From IMG/VR virus record IMGVR_UViG_3300042562_000683, positions 1-31,674 of that record: a stretch of DNA of 31,674 nt; one strand, given 5' to 3'. This document shows positions 7,186 through 27,431 of the stretch, one piece after another. The stretch's first letter is position 1. Every line of letters starts with the position of its first letter. Under the pieces are notes generated by a model that was given only the letters and a program-made list of their open reading frames with translations, was not told where the DNA came from and did not search any database. Both the position numbers and the translations under genes were made by a program. The stretch comes from a virus.

Positions 7186-8345
7186 GCTTCCTGTTCGAAC
7201 GGCGCTCTGCCCCGCTGGCTCTGCAGCCGGCCGGGTTCACTATCGGCAACAACTGGACCGGCGAAACTGTCACCGAAGACTCAGCCCTCGAGGTCGCCGC
7301 CGTTCTGGCGTGCGTGTCTCTCCTGGCTGACTCGGTGGCATCGCTGCCGCTGCGTGCCATCAAGCAGATCGGCGACCGTAACGAACCGCTGGCTGTGCCG
7401 GCATGGATTCAGACCCCGGCGCCGACGGTCACTTCTTACGAGCTGATCCACATGCTGGTCAGTTCGCTTGCCTTGCACGGCAACGCCTACGCGGTCCTCG
7501 ACTACGCCGGCGGTCTGCTCAAGTCGATCACCCCACTGCACCCCGCCCACGTTGTCGTCACTGTCGTCGACTCGAAGCGCACCTACAACGTCAACGGCGT
7601 CGACGTGCCAGCCGACGACATGATGCACCTGCGCTGGTTCACTTCCCCGCAGCAGGCCAAGGGCATCTCCCCGATTCACACGCAGCGCACCACGATCGGC
7701 CTGTCGCTGGCGATGGACCGCCACCTCGCCCAGTTCTACGGCGAAGGCGCAACGCCCTCCTCGGTCCTCGAGACCGATGCGGAGATGACTGTCGAAGCCG
7801 CCAAGGTTCTGCAGGCAACTTGGGAGTCTCAGCACCGTCGCCGCCGCCGCCCCGCCGTCTTGTCGGGTGGGCTCAAGTGGCGTGCCGTCTCGGCCTCTGC
7901 TGCGGACATGGAACTCAATGCGACGCGAGAAGCCCAGATTCAGGAGATTGCGCGCATCTTCCGAGTCCCCGCACATATGGTCGGCAGCTCAGGCCCATCG
8001 CAGACGTACCAGAACATCGAGCAGGCCGGCGTGCAGTTCGTGACTTACACGCTGCTGCCCTGGTTGCGTCGCATCGAAGACGCCATCAGTGCGCTCATGC
8101 CCTCGCCGCAGGTCGTGCGTTTCGACACCTCGGCGTTCCTGCGTGCGGACACCATCAATCGCTACCGCGCCCATCAGGTCGGCATCAGTTCCGGTTTCAT
8201 CACACCGAACGAAGCCCGCAACGTCGAAGGCCTCGAGCCTTATGTGGGCGGCGACGAGTTCTTCCTCGCATTGCCCGGTGCCCCCATGGCCGGCCCGGGC
8301 GTCGACTTGCCACCTGCTGGCATCGACGCCTCCCCGCCCCAGTAG
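7182..8345 (+). CDS. Portal protein (HK97 family)
   Basis: A 387-residue portal subunit that forms the dodecameric ring through which DNA is packaged. The N-terminal VLACVSLLADSVASLPLR, the ALHGNAYAVLDY segment, MMHLRWFTSPQQAKGISPIH, and the central REAQIQEIARIFRVPAHMVGSS followed by NIEQAGVQFVTYTLLPWLRRIE are standard HK97-type portal signatures, in the expected order. The length is normal for the family. The ATG at 7182 overlaps the stop of the small membrane protein; a GTG five codons upstream is a weaker alternative. It lies between terL and the prohead protease, the usual order. Confidence 0.95.
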   Translation: MSFLFERRSAPLALQPAGFTIGNNWTGETVTEDSALEVAAVLACVSLLADSVASLPLRAIKQIGDRNEPLAVPAWIQTPAPTVTSYELIHMLVSSLALHGNAYAVLDYAGGLLKSITPLHPAHVVVTVVDSKRTYNVNGVDVPADDMMHLRWFTSPQQAKGISPIHTQRTTIGLSLAMDRHLAQFYGEGATPSSVLETDAEMTVEAAKVLQATWESQHRRRRRPAVLSGGLKWRAVSASAADMELNATREAQIQEIARIFRVPAHMVGSSGPSQTYQNIEQAGVQFVTYTLLPWLRRIEDAISALMPSPQVVRFDTSAFLRADTINRYRAHQVGISSGFITPNEARNVEGLEPYVGGDEFFLALPGAPMAGPGVDLPPAGIDASPPQ

Positions 8346-19516: not shown

Positions 19517-20329
19517 ATGATCGAAGCACGAACGCACCTGGTGATCCCGGACACACAGTCCAAGGCCGGCGTGCCGACTGTTCACCTTGAGTGGATTGGC
19601 CAGTACATCGTCGACAAGCAGCCCGACGTGGTCATCCATCTTGGAGACCATGCCGACATGCCGAGCTTGTCGAGCTGGGATTCTGGTACTCGCGCTTTCG
19701 AGGGCCGGCGCTACACGGCTGACATCGAGGCCGCCAACGCTGCGTTCGACATCCTGTGCCGGCCGATGGCCAAGTACAACGCCCACATGGTGGCGATCAA
19801 GGGCAAGCAGTACAAGCCCGAGCGGGTCATCCTTCTCGGCAATCACGAGCACCGCATCGACCGAGCCACGAACGACGACGCCAAGCTGACCGGGCTGATC
19901 TCCACCGACGACCTGAACTACGCCTCGCACGGCTGGACGGTCGAACCGTTCCTACGCCCCAAGTTCATCGACGGCGTTGGGTACTGCCACTTCTTCTCTA
20001 ACCCGATGACAGGCAAGCCTCTCGGCGGTGCGGCTGCGACCCGACTGAAGACCATCGGCCACAGCTTCACGATGGGCCACCAACAGACCCTCGACTACAC
20101 GGTGCGCTTCTTGTCGAACGGCCAGCAGCAGAACGGCCTCGTGGCCGGCGCCTGCTACCTGCACGACGAGGACTACAAGGGCTACCAGGGCAACGCCCAC
20201 TGGCGTGGCGTGATCGTCAAGCACCAGGTGCACGACGGCAGCTACGACCCGATGTTCGTGTCCCTCGATTACTTGTGCCGCCGCTACGAAGGCCGCACCC
20301 TCGCCCAGTTCATGCAGCACCTCTACTGA
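19517..20329 (+). CDS. Calcineurin-like metallophosphoesterase
   Basis: A 270-residue phosphoesterase. The five metallophosphatase motifs can be followed: LVIPDTQ (D...), VVIHLGDHADM (GDxxD), ILLGNHEHRID (GNHE), GHSFTMGHQQ (H) and a later NAHWRGVIVKHQ with histidines. It is followed by a DUF6378-like gene and preceded by the lysis genes. The ATG at 19517 begins right before the conserved first strand; the open frame upstream lies over the preceding gene. Substrate is unknown; a role in nucleic-acid or cyclic-nucleotide hydrolysis is possible. It is common in actinophage genomes in this region. Confidence 0.85.
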   Translation: MIEARTHLVIPDTQSKAGVPTVHLEWIGQYIVDKQPDVVIHLGDHADMPSLSSWDSGTRAFEGRRYTADIEAANAAFDILCRPMAKYNAHMVAIKGKQYKPERVILLGNHEHRIDRATNDDAKLTGLISTDDLNYASHGWTVEPFLRPKFIDGVGYCHFFSNPMTGKPLGGAAATRLKTIGHSFTMGHQQTLDYTVRFLSNGQQQNGLVAGACYLHDEDYKGYQGNAHWRGVIVKHQVHDGSYDPMFVSLDYLCRRYEGRTLAQFMQHLY

Positions 20330-20344
20330 TCGCAGGAGATCGCC

Positions 20345-20722
20345 GTGGGCAAGAAGAAGAACGCCATCGAACCCGGTGTCGCACAGTGGGATTCGATTAC
20401 CGCCGACGCTCATGCCCTGGTCTACGGCGACCGTGGTGCCCTCTATGACCACCCGGCCGTGGACTACCAGCGCACGGTCGACCTGTTCAACTCAATAGTC
20501 GAGGGCGCCGATCTGACCGCCGCCGAAGGTGTCGTGTTCATGCTGTGCGTGAAGCTCTCCCGACTCGGCAACGGCATCGAGCAGGGCTTCCCACCCGAGA
20601 TGCTCAGGGACACCATCGTCGACTTGGCCGGCTACGCCGAATGCCTCTATGGCGTGCTGACCTTCGTGCCGCCGGCCCTCGAAGACGAGCTCGACGACGA
20701 GCCCGACGACGACGATGACTGA
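20345..20722 (+). CDS. DUF6378-like small phage protein
   Basis: A 125-residue protein starting at a GTG with a CAGGAG site at 20333-20338. The sequence has ALVYGDRGALYDHPAVDYQRTVDLFNSIVEGADLTAAEG followed by VKLSRLGNGIEQG and DTIVDLAGYAECL, the pattern of DUF6378 proteins (R-x-x-x-YGHP, DYxRT, KLxR, DxxGYA). That family is widespread in phages and proposed to be all-helical, MazG/NTP-pyrophosphatase-like in fold; activity is not established. The C-terminal tail is very acidic (DDEPDDDDD). It overlaps the next gene by eight bases. Confidence 0.72.
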   Translation: MGKKKNAIEPGVAQWDSITADAHALVYGDRGALYDHPAVDYQRTVDLFNSIVEGADLTAAEGVVFMLCVKLSRLGNGIEQGFPPEMLRDTIVDLAGYAECLYGVLTFVPPALEDELDDEPDDDDD

Positions 20723-20957
20723 CACCCAGTGGGGCTGGGCGCTGCTGGTCTGCGAACTCGCCGGCCTCGCTGCCACGAGTCACCTGGTCGGCGCACGTCG
20801 CCTCTGGTGGGGCTGGCTAGTTGTCCTCGGCTGCGTCTCGGTTCCGTGGGTCGCTTACTCGATCGCCACGTCTCGCACCCCTTTCCTTCTTCTGTCGGTC
20901 CTCTGGGCCGGCGTGCACATCACGAACGCCTACCGGTGGAAAGCAGATCCCGAATGA
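20715..20957 (+). CDS. Three-helix membrane protein
   Basis: An 80-residue integral membrane protein. Three hydrophobic stretches are visible: GWALLVCELAGLAATSHLVG, WWGWLVVLGCVSVPWVAYSI and PFLLLSVLWAGVHITNAY. The WWGW and the NAYRW at the end are features of small phage membrane proteins of the type found near lysis genes in actinophages. Its ATG lies inside the preceding stop region and its own stop overlaps the next ATG. It might assist lysis or membrane conductance; that is inference. Confidence 0.7.
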   Translation: MTDTQWGWALLVCELAGLAATSHLVGARRLWWGWLVVLGCVSVPWVAYSIATSRTPFLLLSVLWAGVHITNAYRWKADPE

Positions 20958-21292
20958 CTACGCCCGCTGTGTATTCGTTGAATGTTCGCATCGGTTCGAC
21001 CGAGACCGTGTCGCTCACCCTGCAAGGCGCCGACGGCACGCCCACCAATATCACCGGGCGCACCTACGCGGCTCAGATCCGCACGACCGCCGACGCCACC
21101 ACGACCGTCGCTGTCTTTGCTTGCTCGATCGTCTCGGCCGCTGCCGGCACCGTGTCGGCCACACTGTCGGCCACGACCACCGCAGCCCTCGCACCGCAGG
21201 CCGCGGTGTGGGATCTCGTCGAAACCAACGGCGCCACGGTCACCACGCTCCTCGCCGGCCCGGTCACTGTCCAGCAGGGCGTGACGCGATGA
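20954..21292 (+). CDS. Baseplate/tail-fibre-associated beta-sandwich protein
   Basis: A 112-residue protein beginning at the ATG that overlaps the previous stop. The pattern SLNVRIGSTETVSLTLQGADGTPTNITGRTYAAQIR... ending LLAGPVTVQQGVTR is typical of small BppU-like beta-sandwich modules placed just before tail fibre genes in many phages. No catalytic residue is seen. Its stop overlaps the fibre ATG, so the two are coupled, and it may attach the fibre to the tail. An open frame extending upstream is noise in the previous gene. Confidence 0.72.
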   Translation: MTTPAVYSLNVRIGSTETVSLTLQGADGTPTNITGRTYAAQIRTTADATTTVAVFACSIVSAAAGTVSATLSATTTAALAPQAAVWDLVETNGATVTTLLAGPVTVQQGVTR

Positions 21293-22488
21293 ACGACGCA
21301 GTGACCCTGCGCACCTCCGATGCGGTCGTGGTTCGTGTCGGTGTCGACTCGGTGCGCGTGGTCGAGTCTCCGAGCAACGTCATCACAGCCGTCGGCTCGA
21401 GCGTCTCGGGGCCTGTTGGCCCGCAAGGCAACCAAGGCTTACGGGGTGCTACTGGCGCTCAGGGTGCGACTGGTGCGACTGGCAATCAGGGCGCCGTCGG
21501 CGTCCAAGGTGCACAGGGCGTCATCGGTTCACAGGGCGTCATCGGTGCACAGGGTGCCACCGGTGCACAGGGCAACCAAGGATTCCAAGGTGCCACCGGT
21601 GCACAGGGTGCTACTGGCGCTCAGGGCGTCATCGGCGCCCAGGGTGCACAGGGCAGCACCGGCCCACAGGGCAACCAAGGCCCACAGGGTGTCGGTGGTG
21701 CTCAGGGAGCGGCTGGTGCTCAGGGTGCTCAGGGTGCTCAGGGTGCACAGGGAGCACAGGGCAACCAAGGATTCCAAGGCAACCAAGGTGCGACCGGTGC
21801 ACAAGGTTTCCAAGGTGTCATCGGTGCACAGGGAGCACAGGGCAACACGGGCGCACAGGGTGCCGGTGTCGCCGCGGGCGGAACGATCGGTCAGGCGTTG
21901 GTCAAGAACTCAGCCACCGATTACGACACGCAATGGGCTTCTATCAATTCGGTGGACCGCTTGCGCGACTATCTGCAAATGTCCGCCACGGCACTTGACG
22001 TATTCTCGCGTTCGATCGTTGTCTCGACTATCACGCTTGTCACCGGCCAAGCGCGTGTCGTCTACTTCACCCCCCCCTATGACATAACTGTTTCGGAAAT
22101 CACGTTCATTAGCGGTACCACTGCGTCAAGCGGTTTGACTCTTGCTCGTTTCGGACTTTACGACCCGACCGAACTAGTAGCTCGCACCGCATCCGATACC
22201 ACTTTGTTCAACTCAACTGCAACGGCATACACCCGGTCCTTCGATACCGCAGGCGGCTTCCCGGCCACGTTCGACCTTGTGGCAGGCACCCGATATGGGG
22301 TGGGATTTATCTTCGTGGGGACAACCCCGGGCAGCGTCTTTGGCACGAGTCAACCCGGAACTGGCGGGCAGGTGTTGACTGCGCTAAGTCCCCGAATTAG
22401 TGGCGTCCAGAACGGCCTGTCGGACTTCCAGACAGGGACCCTGCCCGTCAACAACAACGGCGGCGTCCCCTTTGCGAGACTGTCATGA
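21289..22488 (+). CDS. Collagen-like tail fibre protein
   Basis: A 399-residue fibre. Residues 1-40 form the attachment head (NDAVTLRTSDAVVVRVGVDS...). Residues 41-192 are an uninterrupted Gly-X-Y collagen-like shaft of about 50 triplets, dominated by GAQ, GNQ, GVI and GAT. A short helix (VDRLRDYLQMSATAL) and a beta-rich head domain follow (VSTITLVTGQARVVYFTP ... LDSG-rich turns), ending PVNNNGGVPFARLS, as in receptor-binding fibre tips. The head domain DNA looks less GC-rich than the shaft, which hints at exchange between phages. The shaft would trimerise; the head is the likely host-range determinant. Confidence 0.88.
   Translation: MNDAVTLRTSDAVVVRVGVDSVRVVESPSNVITAVGSSVSGPVGPQGNQGLRGATGAQGATGATGNQGAVGVQGAQGVIGSQGVIGAQGATGAQGNQGFQGATGAQGATGAQGVIGAQGAQGSTGPQGNQGPQGVGGAQGAAGAQGAQGAQGAQGAQGNQGFQGNQGATGAQGFQGVIGAQGAQGNTGAQGAGVAAGGTIGQALVKNSATDYDTQWASINSVDRLRDYLQMSATALDVFSRSIVVSTITLVTGQARVVYFTPPYDITVSEITFISGTTASSGLTLARFGLYDPTELVARTASDTTLFNSTATAYTRSFDTAGGFPATFDLVAGTRYGVGFIFVGTTPGSVFGTSQPGTGGQVLTALSPRISGVQNGLSDFQTGTLPVNNNGGVPFARLS
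21409..21867 (+). repeat. Tandem 9-bp-type repeats encoding the collagen-like shaft
   Basis: Runs of variants of GGTGCACAG, GGTGCTCAG and GGCAACCAA repeat in register with the codons for Gly-X-Gln. The repeats are imperfect at the DNA level with many synonymous differences, which indicates an older array or selection for protein, but closely spaced identical units make length changes by slippage or recombination likely. Confidence 0.85.
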
Positions 22489-22640
22489 GCGACCCCGTAC
22501 CTATCCGCACCGACTATGTCGGCATCGCCGACGGCGGCCACCTCTGGTCTGTTTGGCGAACAGACACCAACGAGCAAATCGGCTGGAACCTCACACCAAT
22601 CGACACCGACCTCGTGGCCGAACCCGAGGTGCCCGAATGA
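22485..22640 (+). CDS. Small Trp-rich hypothetical protein
   Basis: A 51-residue protein whose ATG overlaps the fibre stop (ATGA) and whose stop overlaps the next ATG. The sequence contains GGHLWSVWRTDTNEQIGW with closely spaced Trp residues, resembling small tail-fibre-associated or chaperone-like proteins encoded next to fibre genes. No motif allows a function to be assigned. The dual overlaps are the main support for it being a real gene. Confidence 0.55.
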   Translation: MSDPVPIRTDYVGIADGGHLWSVWRTDTNEQIGWNLTPIDTDLVAEPEVPE

Positions 22641-22765
22641 CCATCACCGAGACCCGCCCCGAGGTGATCGAGATCCCGACCATCGAAGACGACCAGGACG
22701 ACGACGACCTCGAGTACGTCGACCCGCCCGCAGTACCCACCGAACACCCTGAATGGGGAATGTGA
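22637..22765 (+). CDS. Very acidic 42-residue protein
   Basis: A 42-residue protein starting at the ATG that overlaps the previous stop. The middle is nearly all acidic (EDDQDDDDLEY) and the end is proline-rich. Its stop overlaps the ATG of the holin gene. Its function is not known; small acidic proteins in such a position may act as lysis regulators or fibre chaperones, but that is a guess. Confidence 0.5.
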   Translation: MTITETRPEVIEIPTIEDDQDDDDLEYVDPPAVPTEHPEWGM

Positions 22766-23031
22766 TGAACCGCAATCTGATCCGAGCCATCATCGAACGC
22801 GCAGCGAAGACCGCAGCCCAATCGCTGCTCCTCTTCGTCGGAGCCGCACAAGGCCTCGACCTGTTTACCCTCGACTGGCAACGGGCCCTCGGAGCCGCCG
22901 CAGCAGGAGCGCTACTTAGCGTCCTCACGTCGATCGCCTCGCTCGGAATAGGCCCGGCCGACTCACCGTCGCTCGTCGCCCCGATCGTCTCCTCAGATCC
23001 GGTGACCCCGCTGATCCCTCCGAGCATGTGA
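22765..23031 (+). CDS. Holin-like membrane protein
   Basis: An 88-residue membrane protein at the end of the lysis/late block. It has a basic, amphipathic N-terminus (MNRNLIRAIIERAAKTAAQS), a hydrophobic helix (LLLFVGAAQGLDLF) and a second helix (ALGAAAAGALLSVLTSIASLG), a two-helix layout common for r1t-type phage holins; the C-terminal tail is Ser/Pro-rich. The ATG at 22765 overlaps the preceding stop; GGGGAA just upstream serves as Shine-Dalgarno, and an ATG four codons earlier is less likely. A strong terminator follows within 140 bp. Paired with the endolysin at 18410. Confidence 0.75.
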   Translation: MNRNLIRAIIERAAKTAAQSLLLFVGAAQGLDLFTLDWQRALGAAAAGALLSVLTSIASLGIGPADSPSLVAPIVSSDPVTPLIPPSM

Positions 23032-23140
23032 CCTAGCTCTCCGGCTCGACGACGACGAGACCCCTGCACCTCGTCGACTAGGTGACCGCGCAGCCCTCAT
23101 GGCATGCGACCGCACCCCAACACAACCGAGCCGGCCAACG

Positions 23141-23171
23141 ACGCCCCCACTGCTTCGAGCGGTGGGGGCGT
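23141..23171 (+). terminator. Intrinsic terminator of the late operon
   Basis: ACGCCCCCACTGCT (23141-23154) pairs with AGCGGTGGGGGCGT (23158-23171), a 14-bp GC-rich stem with one T-G pair and a TCG loop, followed by a T-rich CTGTCGTTTCT. It lies about 110 bp after the holin gene. The stretch 23032-23140 before it contains no gene that I can support. Confidence 0.8.
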
Positions 23172-23186
23172 CTGTCGTTTCTGGGA

Positions 23187-23192
23187 TACCTT
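23187..23192 (+). promoter_or_regulatory. -10 box of a likely leaderless promoter for the first HTH gene
   Basis: TACCTT, within GATACCTT, fits TANNNT and ends seven bases before the ATG at 23200. The second HTH gene at 25884 has a similar GATACCGT at almost the same distance from its start, so both may be made from leaderless mRNAs. No clear -35 box is visible here. Confidence 0.45.
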
Positions 23193-23199
23193 GCCGGCC

Positions 23200-23397
23200 A
23201 TGGAAGAAGTCCGGCAGGGACGGCTGATGGATCTGAGGGGCGTGGCTGCTTACCTCGGAATCACCGAACGCCAAGCCCGCCACCTCGCCGAGCAAAACCG
23301 CATACCAGTTACCCGCATCGACGGTCGGCTGCGCTTCGACATCTGGGCAATCGACAAGTGGATCGCCCGGTCAACGACCAAGCCGACCTCTAGGTAG
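23200..23397 (+). CDS. xis: Excisionase-type winged HTH protein 1 (candidate Xis/RDF)
   Basis: A 65-residue MerR-like/excisionase DNA-binding protein. LMDLRGVAAYLGITERQARHLAEQ is the helix-turn-helix and RIPVTRIDGRLRFDIWAID the beta wing; W near the end of IDKWI is conserved in excisionases. It lies between the late terminator and the attP core, 450 bp before the integrase start, suitable for a recombination directionality factor. A second copy at 25884 has a nearly identical wing but a different recognition helix. The ATG at 23200 follows a -10 box directly; an upstream ATG at 23104 would run through the terminator hairpin and is rejected. The name is by role, not by tested activity. Confidence 0.75.
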   Translation: MEEVRQGRLMDLRGVAAYLGITERQARHLAEQNRIPVTRIDGRLRFDIWAIDKWIARSTTKPTSR

Positions 23398-23410
23398 GAA
23401 GGGCCGGGCC

Positions 23411-23638
23411 ATGACAAAGGGAAAGACCAAGAAATACAAATGCGAGGTGTGCCCCGACGACAAGCGCATTCTCGGCGGGCTTTGCACACATGAACACCGA
23501 GTCTCTCAGGGCAAACCACCGACAATTGAGGACCCCGAAATCCTCGAACTACTGCGGTGGATCTTGCGGCCAGATCCACCTCGGCAGCAGAATCGTGTGC
23601 AAAATAAGTGCATCACCCTAGACATTCACCCGCTCTGA
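23411..23638 (+). CDS. Small hypothetical protein with CxxC and His/Cys motif
   Basis: A 75-residue basic protein directly after the first HTH gene, with AGGAAGGG at 23396-23403 as ribosome-binding site. KCEVCPDDKRILGGLCTHEHR could hold a zinc ion (C-x2-C...C-x-H). The rest, EILELLRWILRPDPPRQQ, is helical then proline-rich. The 3' end includes a GTGCAAA motif (23597-23603) also found next to the integrase start and stops about 25 bp before the tRNA-like att core. Function unknown; its place suggests a link with integration or excision. Confidence 0.55.
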   Translation: MTKGKTKKYKCEVCPDDKRILGGLCTHEHRVSQGKPPTIEDPEILELLRWILRPDPPRQQNRVQNKCITLDIHPL

Positions 23639-23664
23639 GCTGGGATTATGGCACAAAGCCGCCA

Positions 23665-23711
23665 TGCCCTGCAAAGGCGCGTACCCCAGTTCGACTCTGG
23701 GCGCCGCCTCC
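23665..23711 (+). other. attP: attP core: 3' half of a tRNA-Cys(GCA) gene
   Basis: The segment contains an anticodon stem-loop TGCC-CTGCAAA-GGCG (anticodon GCA at 23671-23673), a T-arm CCCAG-TTCGACT-CTGGG (23685-23701), and the 3' acceptor strand CGCCGCC with the U73-equivalent T at 23709, a tRNA-Cys identity base. No 5' acceptor strand or D-arm precedes it, so it is not a complete tRNA gene. Integration of phages into tRNA 3' ends restores the gene from attP, and the integrase gene starts 140 bp downstream. Phage genes on both sides mark it as attP and not attL or attR. Confidence 0.82.
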
Positions 23712-23714
23712 GGG

Positions 23715-23752
23715 AGCAGGACCAGCATAAGTGCTGGTCCTGCTTGCTTTTT
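23715..23752 (+). terminator. Intrinsic terminator next to the att core
   Basis: AGCAGGACCAGCA (23715-23727) pairs perfectly with TGCTGGTCCTGCT (23732-23744), a 13-bp stem with a TAAG loop, followed by TGCTTTTTG. It lies right behind the tRNA 3' end, as a host tRNA terminator would, and may have been carried in with the att site or serve to restore transcription termination after integration. Confidence 0.85.
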
Positions 23753-23795
23753 GCCCTCATTCTGACGGTCTGCTGTTGTGGCCGATAGTGTCCAC

Positions 23796-23837
23796 TTGTG
23801 CCGGTTTGTGCGACCTCATGTGCAAACTGAGTGCAAA
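23796..23837. repeat. Phased TGTGC/GTGCAAA boxes upstream of the integrase (candidate arm-type sites)
   Basis: TTGTGC, TTGTGC, ATGTGC and GAGTGC occur at 23796, 23806, 23818 and 23829, spaced 10-12 bp, about one helical turn. The last two extend to GTGCAAA (23820-23826 and 23831-23837), which also occurs at 23597 and resembles the TGCAAA in the att core. Such phased short repeats are expected for integrase arm-binding or Xis sites; the assignment is inferred. Confidence 0.4.
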
Positions 23838-23849
23838 GCGAGGGCACCT

Positions 23850-24983
23850 ATGGCGGTCAAGAAGTACGGCACGAAACAATGGCAAGCACGCTGGCGAGAC
23901 GAGGCAGGCAAGCAGCGCGCCAAAGTGTTCGCCAAGAAGAGCGACGCCGATGCCTTTTTGCGAGCCGCTACCGACGGCTCAGGGCAGGGAGGACTTATGC
24001 CATCGGCCGGCGCCATCACCGTGGCCGAGGTCGGCGCCAGGTTCCTCGCCTCCTGCATCCATCTCTCCCCGGGCACCATCGAGGGCTACACCCGAGACCT
24101 CACGCGCTACGCCTACCCGGCGTTCGGTGACCTCCCGATCTCGAAGCTCACCTCGGCCATGATCCAGAGTTGGCTTGCCGAGCAGCTCACCCGCCTCGCA
24201 CCCTCGACCGTCAAAGCGAACTACCGCAGCTTGCGCGTCATGGTCGTCTGGGCGATCCGCGCCCGCTACCTCGCCACCAATCCGTTCGACGGCGTCAATG
24301 CGCCGCGCGTCCCTTTCGTCGAGAAGGAATACCTGACCGTCCAGCAGGTCGAAGCAATCGCCGACAACATCGGAGACCGCTACCGCGCCTTCGTTCTCGT
24401 CGCCGCGTACTCAGGTGCCCGACTCGCCGAGCTGACCGGGCTTCGTCGAGCATGGGTCAACGGCAACGCCATCACCATCAACGAACAACTCAAGATGCGC
24501 GCTACTGGCTGGTCACGCGAAGCAACCAAGACCTCGGGCAGCAGGCGCACGATTGTCCTGCCCGCTTCGATCGCCGAGGAACTGCGCCAGCACATGGACA
24601 AGTACACCGGACCGGGACCGGATGACCTGGTATTCATCAACCAGTACGGCAACCCGATCGGGGCAAGCTTCCGAGGAAACGTGTGGGCGCCGGCCTGCTA
24701 CAAAGCCGGCCTCGCGGAACTGAAGACCCACGCCGATCGGCCCACCACGATCGTCGGCTACCCGAAGTTCCATTCCCTCCGGCACACCTCGGTCGCTATC
24801 TGCATCGCTGCCGGCGTTGCCCCGAAGGTGATCCAGCAGCGCCTCGGCCATTCGTCCATCGTGCTCACGATGAACACCTATGGGCACCTCATGCCGGGCC
24901 TCGATGACGCCGCCGCCGCCGCCATGGATGGTCTCAGGCCATCAGCGGTCGTTGACGATGTTGGCGATCCTGCCGGGCGTTAG
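23850..24983 (+). CDS. int: Tyrosine-type integrase
   Basis: A 377-residue site-specific recombinase. The N-terminal arm-binding part is MAVKKYGTKQWQARWRDEAGKQRAKVFAKKSDADAF; the core-binding SAM-like domain spans ~55-150 (LSPGTIEGYTRDL). The catalytic set is complete: R191 (YSGARLAEL), K227 (ATKTSGSRR), H308 and R311 (FHSLRHTS), H334 (RLGHSS) and nucleophile Y344 (MNTYGH). The ATG at 23850 is chosen because it begins the conserved arm-binding part; a GTG at 23778 would run across the phased repeats. The gene stands ~140 bp behind the attP core, in its usual orientation. Its last 42 bp overlap a minus-strand HTH gene. Confidence 0.95.
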   Translation: MAVKKYGTKQWQARWRDEAGKQRAKVFAKKSDADAFLRAATDGSGQGGLMPSAGAITVAEVGARFLASCIHLSPGTIEGYTRDLTRYAYPAFGDLPISKLTSAMIQSWLAEQLTRLAPSTVKANYRSLRVMVVWAIRARYLATNPFDGVNAPRVPFVEKEYLTVQQVEAIADNIGDRYRAFVLVAAYSGARLAELTGLRRAWVNGNAITINEQLKMRATGWSREATKTSGSRRTIVLPASIAEELRQHMDKYTGPGPDDLVFINQYGNPIGASFRGNVWAPACYKAGLAELKTHADRPTTIVGYPKFHSLRHTSVAICIAAGVAPKVIQQRLGHSSIVLTMNTYGHLMPGLDDAAAAAMDGLRPSAVVDDVGDPAGR

Positions 24984-25160
24984 ACCGAGAAGCTTGCCGA
25001 TGCGGACATGCGTCCATCCGGCGCGTCGGAGCGCCACCACGGCCTGCCTGCGCGCGTCTGAAGCGACAGCTACCGCAGTCATTAGATCCTGAAGATCCCT
25101 TTGGGCTTTTAGTGCTCTTTCGATCATTGGCTCAGACGCCGCCACGTCACCCGCACCCAT
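24942..25160 (-). CDS. Small HTH protein, minus strand, overlapping the integrase 3' end
   Basis: A 72-residue DNA-binding protein. After a helical segment (ALKAQRDLQDLMTAVAVASD), RRQAVVALRRAGWTHVRIGKLLGLTPGRIANIVN forms a helix-turn-helix of the sigma-region/Trp-repressor style. It runs toward and overlaps the integrase gene by 42 bp, so its transcript is antisense to the integrase 3' end. A GATACT -10 box (25181-25186, minus strand) and AGGA precede the ATG at 25160; a later in-frame ATG is possible. Small HTH proteins in this place may regulate lysogeny; the target is unknown. Between its start and the repressor gene (25161-25406) I find no convincing gene. Confidence 0.62.
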   Translation of the reverse strand: MGAGDVAASEPMIERALKAQRDLQDLMTAVAVASDARRQAVVALRRAGWTHVRIGKLLGLTPGRIANIVNDR

Positions 25161-25406
25161 CCGCCGACGGTACGTTCCTGAGTATCTATCGCCCCCCTAT
25201 CGCTTCTGCAACCATCCTGCTACCGTGTGACCGACGGCACCGGCGGTGTCGTCCAATCGGGTCCGCTGTCACGGCCGGCCGGTAGGGTCGAACACATGTT
25301 CAGCAGTGGCGGGTTAGGCACGAAGTCTCACGAAGCGGTGGCGCGCGTTGGGGCAGCGACAAATCCGGCTCTAGCACGCCATGTCTGGCGAGTGCTTCGG
25401 GCTGAG

Positions 25407-25775
25407 CTACTGGACTTTGAACGAGCGCAAGACGGCGATGACGGCTTTGGCCTCGATCGGCTTGAGCCCGGGATCGGCGAGGATAGCCAGCTCGGTATCG
25501 GCAATGGCCGGGGCGCCGACGGGCAACCAGCCCAGGTGGCGTGACAGCCCCCCTGGTTCAACACCAACCAGCTCCTCGATCGCCAAGACCTGCGGCCTCG
25601 AGGGTTCACGCTTGCCCGACAGCCAGGAGTTCGCAGCCCGCCGGGCCGACTCGGTCTTGTCAGATCCGGCAATCGGGAACAAGGCCGAGACGCGCAAGCC
25701 CGCATCGGTGAGCGCGCCAGATACGGCTGCACCAAAGGCTATTCGCTGCTCGGTTGTGGAGTTTTTCCCGCTCAT
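25407..25775 (-). CDS. XRE-like phage repressor (immunity repressor candidate)
   Basis: A 122-residue protein on the minus strand. Residues 1-80 are an XRE/lambda-type HTH: AFGAAVSGALTDAGLRVSAL, ...TESARRAANSWLSGKREPSRPQVLAIEELVGVEPGGL, with SxWLSGKREPS as turn and recognition part. A short C-terminal helical part (KPIEAKAVIAVLRSFKVQ) probably dimerises; there is no LexA-type peptidase domain, so SOS cleavage is not expected. It diverges from the second HTH gene at 25884, with two opposed promoters and TATTTAGT boxes between them. This layout is that of CI and Cro. Start ATG at 25775 directly borders the operator region. Confidence 0.78.
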   Translation of the reverse strand: MSGKNSTTEQRIAFGAAVSGALTDAGLRVSALFPIAGSDKTESARRAANSWLSGKREPSRPQVLAIEELVGVEPGGLSRHLGWLPVGAPAIADTELAILADPGLKPIEAKAVIAVLRSFKVQ

Positions 25776-25801
25776 AACACACTCACTCTACGCCTGCGTG
25801 G

Positions 25802-25831
25802 ATCATAAGCAGATCACCCGTATTTAGTAAA
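25802..25831 (-). promoter_or_regulatory. Repressor promoter (minus strand)
   Basis: Reading the minus strand, TTTACT (25831-25826) and TATGAT (25807-25802) are separated by 18 bp, a good -35/-10 pair pointing to the repressor gene and giving a leader of about 20 bases. The -35 box overlaps the TATTTAGT element at 25821-25828, so a repressor bound there could control its own gene. Confidence 0.6.
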
Positions 25832-25846
25832 GAGACAAAAAGAGTC

Positions 25847-25875
25847 TTGACCGGACTTATTTAGTCCGATACCGT
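25847..25875 (+). promoter_or_regulatory. Early (lytic) promoter with operator in the spacer
   Basis: TTGACC (25847-25852) and TACCGT (25870-25875) are separated by exactly 17 bp. The spacer contains the inverted repeat GGACT-TATTT-AGTCC (25853-25867), an operator-like palindrome that includes the TATTTAGT box repeated at 25821. The start codon of the second HTH gene lies eight bases behind the -10 box, so the mRNA is nearly or fully leaderless. This is the P_R-like counterpart of the repressor promoter. Confidence 0.65.
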
Positions 25876-25883
25876 CCTGCACC

Positions 25884-26099
25884 ATGCAGGCACACGAAAC
25901 CACAACTGAGCGAACCGGCCGACTTCTAGACCTCGCCGGCGTAGCTGAATACCTCGGGCTCGACCCAGTCACTATCCGCTCGCTTGTGATCAAGGACCGC
26001 ATACCGGTCACACGCATCGACGGCCGGCTGCGCTTCGACATCTGGGCAATCGACAAGTGGATCGTGCGCAAGACCACGAAGCCGGGGCGTGCGGCATGA
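25884..26099 (+). CDS. Excisionase-type winged HTH protein 2 (candidate Cro-like regulator)
   Basis: A 71-residue paralogue of the protein at 23200. The HTH is LLDLAGVAEYLGLDPVTIRSLVIK and the wing RIPVTRIDGRLRFDIWAID. From the start of the wing the DNA matches the first gene at 65 of 69 positions, including a 40-nt exact run (26025-26064 and 23326-23365), while the helix part differs. It is the first gene of the rightward early operon and faces the repressor across the operator, like Cro. Its stop overlaps the next ATG. Whether it is Cro, a second RDF or both is open. Confidence 0.75.
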   Translation: MQAHETTTERTGRLLDLAGVAEYLGLDPVTIRSLVIKDRIPVTRIDGRLRFDIWAIDKWIVRKTTKPGRAA

Positions 26100-26287
26100 G
26101 CGTCCACTGCTTCTACTGCTCCCGGTGTTTCAAGAACGCCGACTCGCTGCCGGCCCACGACTGCCGGCGCACCACCCACAAGCAGACCGAGAACACGACG
26201 ACCCGTGTGACCCCGGAGCAGTGGGCGCAGATCAGCGCCCGACTCCAGCACCCTTCGTCGACCTATGTGCCGGACGGTGCAGCGTGA
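26096..26287 (+). CDS. Small zinc-finger-like protein
   Basis: A 63-residue protein starting at the ATG that overlaps the previous stop. HCFYCSRCFKNADSLPAHDCRRTTH has C-x2-C and later H-x-C/H pairs, as in C2H2-type fingers. The second half is hydrophilic and includes VTPEQWAQISARLQ. The stop overlaps a GTG start behind it. It may bind DNA or protein in early expression; no family name is assigned. Confidence 0.6.
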   Translation: MSVHCFYCSRCFKNADSLPAHDCRRTTHKQTENTTTRVTPEQWAQISARLQHPSSTYVPDGAA

Positions 26288-26460
26288 CCGCCGCCGGCCA
26301 GCTCGTCGTCGGCGCACTGCTCGTCGTCGCATTCTTCGCCATAGGCGCACTCGTCGAGATCATCGCCACCCTCGACCTCGGCGCCTCGGCTCTCTGTGCA
26401 GTGTTCGCCGGACTCGCCACCGTCACCCTCGTCGCCATCTACCCGACGGCCGGCAAGTGA
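26284..26460 (+). CDS. Tiny two-helix membrane protein
   Basis: A 58-residue hydrophobic protein with a GTG start overlapping the previous stop (GTGA). Two membrane helices are visible (LVVGALLVVAFFAIGALVEI and ALCAVFAGLATVTLVAIY). It is one of two adjacent tiny membrane proteins at the front of the early operon, where superinfection-exclusion or host-membrane factors are often found. Function is unknown. Confidence 0.55.
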   Translation: MTAAGQLVVGALLVVAFFAIGALVEIIATLDLGASALCAVFAGLATVTLVAIYPTAGK

Positions 26461-26881: not shown

Positions 26882-27066
26882 GCAGCGATTACCTGTCCGA
26901 GAAGATCCGCACCCAGGCACTGGCCGAGCAGCCCGACCGTGAGCTGCTGCTGGCTATCGCCGACCATGTCGACGGCGTGTTCTGCGACCGTGACCGACTG
27001 CGCCTCGTCGTCGAATCACTCACCGCCGAGAACCAGCGCCTGCGAGCCACCGAGGGTGTCTGGTGA
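26878..27066 (+). CDS. Small helical hypothetical protein
   Basis: A 62-residue, probably all-helical protein. The ATG overlaps the previous stop, and its stop overlaps the GTG of the WhiB gene. The sequence DYLSEKIRTQALAEQPDREL and LVVESLTAENQRLRATEG suggest a coiled coil at the end. It contains a single Cys and no recognised domain. It is probably a small early protein of unknown role. Confidence 0.55.
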   Translation: MSSDYLSEKIRTQALAEQPDRELLLAIADHVDGVFCDRDRLRLVVESLTAENQRLRATEGVW

Positions 27067-27431
27067 GCGGCTGGTACGACCTCGCCGCCTGCAAGGGCCT
27101 CGGGCACAAGATGTTCCCCGAGCGCGGCAACGCCCAGATGGCGCACGCTGCCATTGCCATCTGTAATACCTGCCCGGTCACCGAGCAGTGCCTGGCATCG
27201 GCCCTCAAGACCGAAGAACGCTTCGGTGTGTGGGGCGGTCTTACCGAACGCAAGCGCCGAGAGATCCGAGTCCCGCGCGGCCCGTCGGCCTGTGGCACCC
27301 GAGTCGCCTACGACCGCGGCTGCCGCTGCCTCGGGTGCAAGAAAGCAACCAACGATTACAAGCGTGAGCGCCGCATCGAGAACGGCACCCTGAACGTCAC
27401 GATATACAAGCACGCGACGGCCGGCGAATGA
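27063..27431 (+). CDS. WhiB-family iron-sulfur transcription factor with extra C-terminal cysteine cluster
   Basis: A 122-residue WhiB-like regulator. The four [4Fe-4S] cysteines are C10, C34, C37 and C43 (LAAC...ICNTCPVTEQC), followed by the FGVWGGLTERKRRE turn and basic tract that in this family contacts sigma factor and DNA. After ~70 residues a second Cys group follows (C77, C87, C89, C92: CGTRVAYDRGCRCLGC), which is not part of the core family and could bind a further metal. Phage WhiB proteins such as that of mycobacteriophage TM4 are known to affect host genes and superinfection. The GTG start overlaps the preceding stop. Confidence 0.92.
   Translation: MSGWYDLAACKGLGHKMFPERGNAQMAHAAIAICNTCPVTEQCLASALKTEERFGVWGGLTERKRREIRVPRGPSACGTRVAYDRGCRCLGCKKATNDYKRERRIENGTLNVTIYKHATAGE

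Follow-up and report, generated by a model that had tools for sequence, protein, structure and literature searches.

Why does one phage carry two similar excisionase-type genes, one beside its attachment site and the other facing its repressor? The question is raised by IMG/VR record IMGVR_UViG_3300042562_000683, which is 31,674 bases long; the entire record was analyzed and is denoted here as the window, and no end repeat was found within it. Gene 1 lies next to the phage attachment site (attP), and gene 2 lies beside a divergent putative repressor gene. Judged by sequence comparison, this arrangement is real and uncommon: a Cox/Apl-like system of the single-protein kind, with an added paralogue at the integration module.

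The products of gene 1 and gene 2 (65 and 71 amino acids) are 65% identical overall, and both belong to the helix-turn-helix (HTH) family HTH_17 (PF12728), scoring above the Pfam cut-off of 27 bits, and to phrog_66 ("excisionase and transcriptional regulator"); the two genes are paralogues. The wing, RIPVTRIDGRLRFDIWAIDKWI, is alike at 22/22 residues, and the DNA that encodes it matches at 65 of 69 bases, with a longest exact run of 40 bases; a repeat search extends the match to 89 nt at 87% identity. The HTH helices beside this wing are unlike (ITERQARHLAEQ in gene 1 versus LDPVTIRSLVIK in gene 2). The initial annotation, made from the letters of the window, had described the wing match, the differing recognition helices, the kinship of the genes and the placement of gene 1 by attP and of gene 2 opposite the repressor, and all of these are borne out here. 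The pair is not an assembly artefact, as the independent contig L003 holds both genes without a single change and at a spacing equal to that in the window. L003 and L004 are fragments of close relatives with about 98.5% identity to the window (over 8 kb for L003); L004 includes gene 1 and stops short of gene 2.

AlphaFold models of both proteins (mean pLDDT 75-78, tails left out) consist of two helices, a two-stranded wing and a C-terminal helix. The closest solved structures include the RdfS excisionase, mycobacteriophage Pukovnik Xis, BldC, RacA, P2 Cox and phage small-terminase-like domains, and these matches, being weak (E above 0.03, TM about 0.5-0.75), give a fold class and not a function. 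By family and model, both genes encode MerR-type winged-helix proteins like phage excisionases, or recombination directionality factors (RDFs). From these similarities we infer excisionase and regulator activities for the two proteins, and the setting for an excisionase is present, with a tyrosine integrase and an attP core and arms encoded alongside. The view of gene 2 as a Cro-like regulator holds for its position, which is that of lambda cro, but not for its domain: the protein matches HTH_17 and is modeled as a winged helix, with no match to HTH_3 or to a Cro family.

To place the pair among related phages, we gathered a collinear group by scanning viral contigs and compared 11 relatives in detail (L005-L011, L013, L015, L052 and L055; L052 is truncated, and L011 and L013 each have a near-duplicate, L012 and L014, respectively). 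With the window, these make 12 phages with a readable repressor-facing locus. That locus holds one HTH_17 gene in all 12, and in a further contig, L044, the first residues of such a gene stand at the contig end. Between the late operon and the integrase gene (int), none of the 11 relatives has an HTH_17 gene. The near-complete records G007 and G010 each have one HTH_17 copy in total, and among the small early open reading frames (ORFs) examined in G007 there is no further excisionase-like gene. The repressor of one single-copy relative, L055, is the closest to that of the window and groups with it (support 100/99). As the relatives, including L055, are single-copy at the repressor-facing locus, the simplest account is that gene 1 was added in the lineage of the window.

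Gene 2 and its orthologues are the first gene of the early lytic operon and adjoin the repressor gene; in the window the divergent pair is separated by a gap of 108 nt, and the stop codon of gene 2 overlaps the start of the next gene (ATGA). Upstream of the gene 2-type gene, the layout TTGACN-N17/18-TACNNT-N8-ATG occurs without a Shine-Dalgarno sequence in 12/12 phages, which is good comparative evidence that a leaderless early transcript is made from it. Leaderless mRNAs with a GATACC-type box had been proposed for both genes. The leaderless layout stands for gene 2, with TACCGT as its box, and gene 1 offers only TACCTT-N7-ATG; it has no recognizable −35 box, and its −10 box is missed by a consensus scan, so that a leaderless start of gene 1 is weakly supported. 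The start itself is placed at 23200, because the residues GRL just 5′ of 23227 are conserved with three synonymous codon differences; for the same reason the in-frame ATG at 23227, which is preceded by an SD-like AGGGA, was rejected as the start.

A 17-bp dyad lies between the −35 and −10 boxes of gene 2. Several relatives also have dyads at this offset. The dyad sequences track the repressor clades, and the HTH protein varies little in comparison, for which reason the dyads are probably repressor operators. Judged singly, no dyad is better than marginal (p 0.04-0.06 for those of the window, L007 and L010); the best dyad of L007 is at another place, and L005 has none. The window contains no second perfect copy of the operator dyad, and so there is no sign of direct repressor control over gene 1. 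With such a gene at the repressor-facing locus of all 12 phages, behind a conserved promoter and in several cases a dyad, gene 2 is taken to occupy the ancestral Cox/Apl-like post and is probably the ancestral RDF.

The two halves of the genes appear to have had different histories. In a codon test, 5/13 same-residue codons of the HTH half are identical, compared with 5.5 expected from codon bias, and in the wing the figure is 18/22, where 12.8 would be expected (differences this few have P about 0.008, and the run of identity has P about 0.0014). A hidden constraint on the nucleotides of the wing, such as an embedded site, was rejected, since nine single-copy orthologues speak against it: synonymous change is evenly spread along their genes. 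The initial annotation had proposed a duplication or a gene conversion of the wing. A recent whole-gene duplication is not supported, because synonymous sites of the HTH half are saturated; the excess of synonymous identity in the wing is consistent with gene conversion, which we take as the presumable cause of the likeness. Such a pattern would be expected if the paralogue is old or was acquired and conversion of its wing followed at a later time. The further proposal that the shared wing is a special link between the two proteins is not supported, for the wing is also the most conserved part among single-copy orthologues: gene 2 and its L005 orthologue are identical at 20/22 wing residues, in phages whose integrases are only 49% identical. 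Identity of the wing at the protein level is largely ordinary on that account.

A second case of an added copy is probably given by L016. In this contig an HTH_17 gene comes immediately after int, at 8072-8263; it has a Shine-Dalgarno-like GTG start and precedes the post-int sequence that follows int directly in other phages. The L016 integrase groups with that of the single-copy phage L009 (support 93/98); the window itself has a long branch and an unsure placement in the integrase tree, and a tree of the 71-aa protein was without resolution and not used. The L016 contig stops before the switch region, where a second copy would be expected. Its int-adjacent copy is a probable parallel to the added paralogue of the window. 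Pattern matches in L031 and L039 were rejected as chance, as their frames are not HTH_17 genes.

From the homology of the two genes, their placement, the single-copy relatives, the promoter layout, the saturated HTH half and the excess wing identity, all read directly from the DNA, we infer a division of labor in which gene 2 keeps the switch job and gene 1 is a dedicated or auxiliary excision factor. In the ground state, one Cox/Apl-like MerR-type winged-helix excisionase, encoded first in the early operon, would serve as both lytic regulator and excision factor, and its leaderless promoter would probably be shut off by the divergent repressor. In the lineage of the window it would then have been joined by a second copy, which lies after the late-operon terminator and ahead of attP, at a distance from the repressor operator. 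The recognition helix of gene 1 would have diverged to saturation while its wing was re-homogenized with that of gene 2, most simply by gene conversion. Gene 2 would hold the ancestral post at the switch as lytic growth starts, and gene 1, beside attR, would act in excision with separate timing. This is the best explanation, and as a whole we hold it with moderate confidence.

Several observations weigh against it. On the NCBI excisionase model TIGR01764 (cut-off 28.8 bits), gene 1 and gene 2 reach 23.4 and 22.1 bits, and the single-copy orthologue of L005 and the L016 copy lie above the cut-off with 35.8 and 36.0 bits. When attP was compared with the switch region, neither exact and near words nor local alignments judged by resampled sequence brought out a consistent match above chance level; a dual RDF should have a shared motif in both places, although RDF sites are short and degenerate (PMC7498355). 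The codon test was made after the wing match had been seen, and in distant comparisons, too, synonymous differences are scarcer in the wing than across the HTH half. Many relatives are fragments, with the single-copy state seen at the compared loci. Finally, the promoter of gene 1 is weak, and the gene may be a passenger.

If gene 1 is such a passenger, acquired from the switch gene of another phage and with little or no role in excision, gene 2 alone would be both the RDF and the switch protein. The relatives evidently manage with the switch copy alone, and the stretch between late operon and int is variable (another ORF occupies it in L052, and additional sequence lies there in L009 and L013); the saturation of the gene 1 HTH half relative to gene 2 and its weak promoter point the same way. 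We nevertheless regard this as unlikely, since the gene 1 frame is intact, its core and wing residues match the family, its wing was kept or made like that of gene 2, it lies beside attP, and a separate copy next to int, its core intact, is present in L016. Gene 1 might otherwise be a BldC-like transcription regulator with another target (int or the late region, for example), with gene 2 as RDF and switch protein. The pure regulators BldC, RacA and MerR share the fold and are among the structure matches, and some RDFs repress int from att (PMC7498355), but the attP-side position and phrog_66 membership favor a recombination role and no target site is known, so that this reading is quite improbable.

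Int-associated copies occur in two branches, the window and L016, and an excisionase gene in that setting might instead be the ancestral condition; most relatives would then have lost it, and within each lineage conversion with the switch copy would have preserved the likeness. Both int-associated copies lack the P(G/E)RAA tail that accompanies the overlap onto the next gene. This history is very improbable: the two copies lie on opposite sides of int and differ in their starts (leaderless-like versus Shine-Dalgarno GTG), the L016 copy has an L005-clade HTH and gene 1 has window-type residues, and several losses would be needed, as L016 nests among single-copy phages and L055 is single-copy. 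To the preferred division of labor one may add that a dual protein was split into two paralogues on either side of the attachment site and so at opposite prophage ends, that repeated conversion of the wing leaves both able to align along the same DNA so that the level of one protein at the switch tunes what the other does at attR, and that the int-adjacent copy of L016 is a parallel; we consider this fuller proposal decidedly improbable.

The initial annotation had also suggested that the two proteins may compete or form mixed dimers, linking immunity to excision; as conjectures these functional proposals are plausible. RDFs of the MerR type are reported to be monomers, and they bind cooperatively in head-to-tail order along direct repeats spaced one turn apart (PMC7498355); mixed arrays, rather than mixed dimers, would therefore be the realistic form of joint action. 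One dyad-like motif, GTGGATC-N-GATC, is present at 23557-23581 and 25798-25815 and nowhere else in the window; the first site is just 5′ of the left attP arm, and the second falls in the gap that separates the repressor from gene 2. This pair was found by eye and is a lead only that may be chance, as about one such shared pattern is expected by rough estimate.

Coordinates of the gene pair and surrounding features in the window
Feature	Position	Strand	Basis and remarks
Intrinsic terminator, late operon	23140-23172	+	Directly 5′ of gene 1; 15-pair stem, 11 G-C pairs, T-rich tail
Possible −10 box of gene 1, TACCTT	23187-23192	+	7 nt before ATG; weak
Gene 1	23200-23397	+	65-aa MerR-type winged-helix protein, excisionase-like, attP side; PF12728 32.4 bits, phrog_66, model
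Wing repeat, copy 1	23297-23365	+	65/69 bases as in copy 2; exact 40-base run 23326-23365
Small ORF, 75 aa	23411-23638	+	3′ of gene 1; overlaps attP left arm
attP left arm-type motif TGTGCAAANNNAGTGCA	23596-23612	+	Motif search
attP core	23668-23711	+	tRNA-Cys, anticodon loop to 3′ end; same tRNA in L015, L052, L055
attP right arm-type motif TGTGCAAANNNAGTGCA	23819-23835	+	Motif search
Tyrosine integrase (int)	23850-24983	+	PF00589 62.7 bits, phrog_1 243.5 bits
Small HTH gene	24942-25160	-	HTH_23-like, below cut-off; between integrase and repressor
Putative immunity repressor (HTH)	25407-25775	-	HTH_3 E 0.04, below cut-off; position; L005 counterpart 41% identical
Gene 2 promoter	25847-25875	+	TTGACC - 17 nt - TACCGT, 8 nt before ATG
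Dyad CGGACT-TATTT-AGTCCG, 17 bp	25852-25868		Between −35 and −10 of gene 2
Gene 2	25884-26099	+	71-aa MerR-type winged-helix protein, putative Cox/Cro-position regulator; PF12728 31.7 bits, phrog_66, model, orthologues
Wing repeat, copy 2	25996-26064	+	65/69 bases as in copy 1
WhiB gene, phage-encoded	27063-27431		PF02467, 73 bits

The attP site is well supported: two copies of TGTGCAAANNNAGTGCA flank the core, and two copies were reached in 0/100 shuffles. The gene order runs from the late genes through the strong terminator, gene 1, the 75-aa ORF, attP, int and the minus-strand HTH gene to the repressor and the divergent gene 2. From this order and the position of attP, integration would put gene 1 at the attR end of the prophage; int, the repressor and gene 2 would come to lie at the attL end. 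The integrases of the relatives, though related, use differing tRNA cores, namely tRNA-Cys in the window, L015, L052 and L055 and other tRNA 3′ ends in L005-L011 and L016, and the arm-type motifs vary as well (TGTGCAAA versus GTGTACC). The 75-aa ORF has no relatives beyond near-identical contigs and contains a possible Cys/His metal-binding motif; the small HTH gene has no match in the relatives.

The phage-encoded WhiB suggests an actinobacterial host (Actinomycetota). A prophage search of genome contigs for the host gave no match, phage and plasmid collections gave weak matches only (best E about 2e-3), and Rfam had no match within 22900-26400. Compared with L003, the window has a block of ~5 kb with zero differences (19654-24632) beside stretches several percent apart, which suggests recent recombination between close relatives. 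At about 21450-21960, a tail-region protein of the window has a long collagen-like Gly-x-y repeat.

An added copy may allow prophage exit to be controlled apart from the switch to growth. A group with mostly one copy, in which two branches have apparently gained another, offers a direct test of how and why two jobs separate, and of whether wing identity lets paralogous RDFs act on common DNA. It also supplies conserved leaderless early promoters and operator-like dyads that vary with repressor type.

In open-access papers we found no description of paired excisionase genes or of roles split by paralogue. Single proteins with both excision and switch roles are already described in 186 Apl, P2 Cox and Pf4 XisF4 (PMC7498355, PMC7379572). 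By position and family, the one protein of the relatives would occupy both posts, as 186 Apl and P2-like Cox do (PMC7498355), and gene 2 has the position of cox/apl in P2/186 as well as that of lambda cro. The window differs in having two paralogues, and no sites shared by att and switch were found here beyond chance. Repressor and regulator genes are face-to-face in P2 and 186 and divergent in the window; its switch is accordingly described only as working like a P2-type switch and is not classed as one. Fold, family, tyrosine integrase and tRNA attachment site are shared with Pukovnik Xis, other HTH_17 excisionases and RdfS of the Mesorhizobium integrative and conjugative elements (ICEs), but the Pukovnik Xis and RdfS systems have one excisionase per integrase, and identity in structural alignments is about 17-21%. 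Tripartite Mesorhizobium ICEs, with three MerR-type RDFs in a cascade (RdfS, RdfG and RdfM), resemble the window in having several such RDFs per element, and there one controls expression of the others (PMC5882170); unlike the window, they are not phages, have three integrases with one RDF each, and have no described pair with a shared wing (PMC5882170). XisF4 and XisF5 of Pf4 and Pf5 are filamentous-phage proteins present once per prophage, in contrast to the pair described here; the excisionase there also represses the phage repressor gene and activates replication (PMC7379572).
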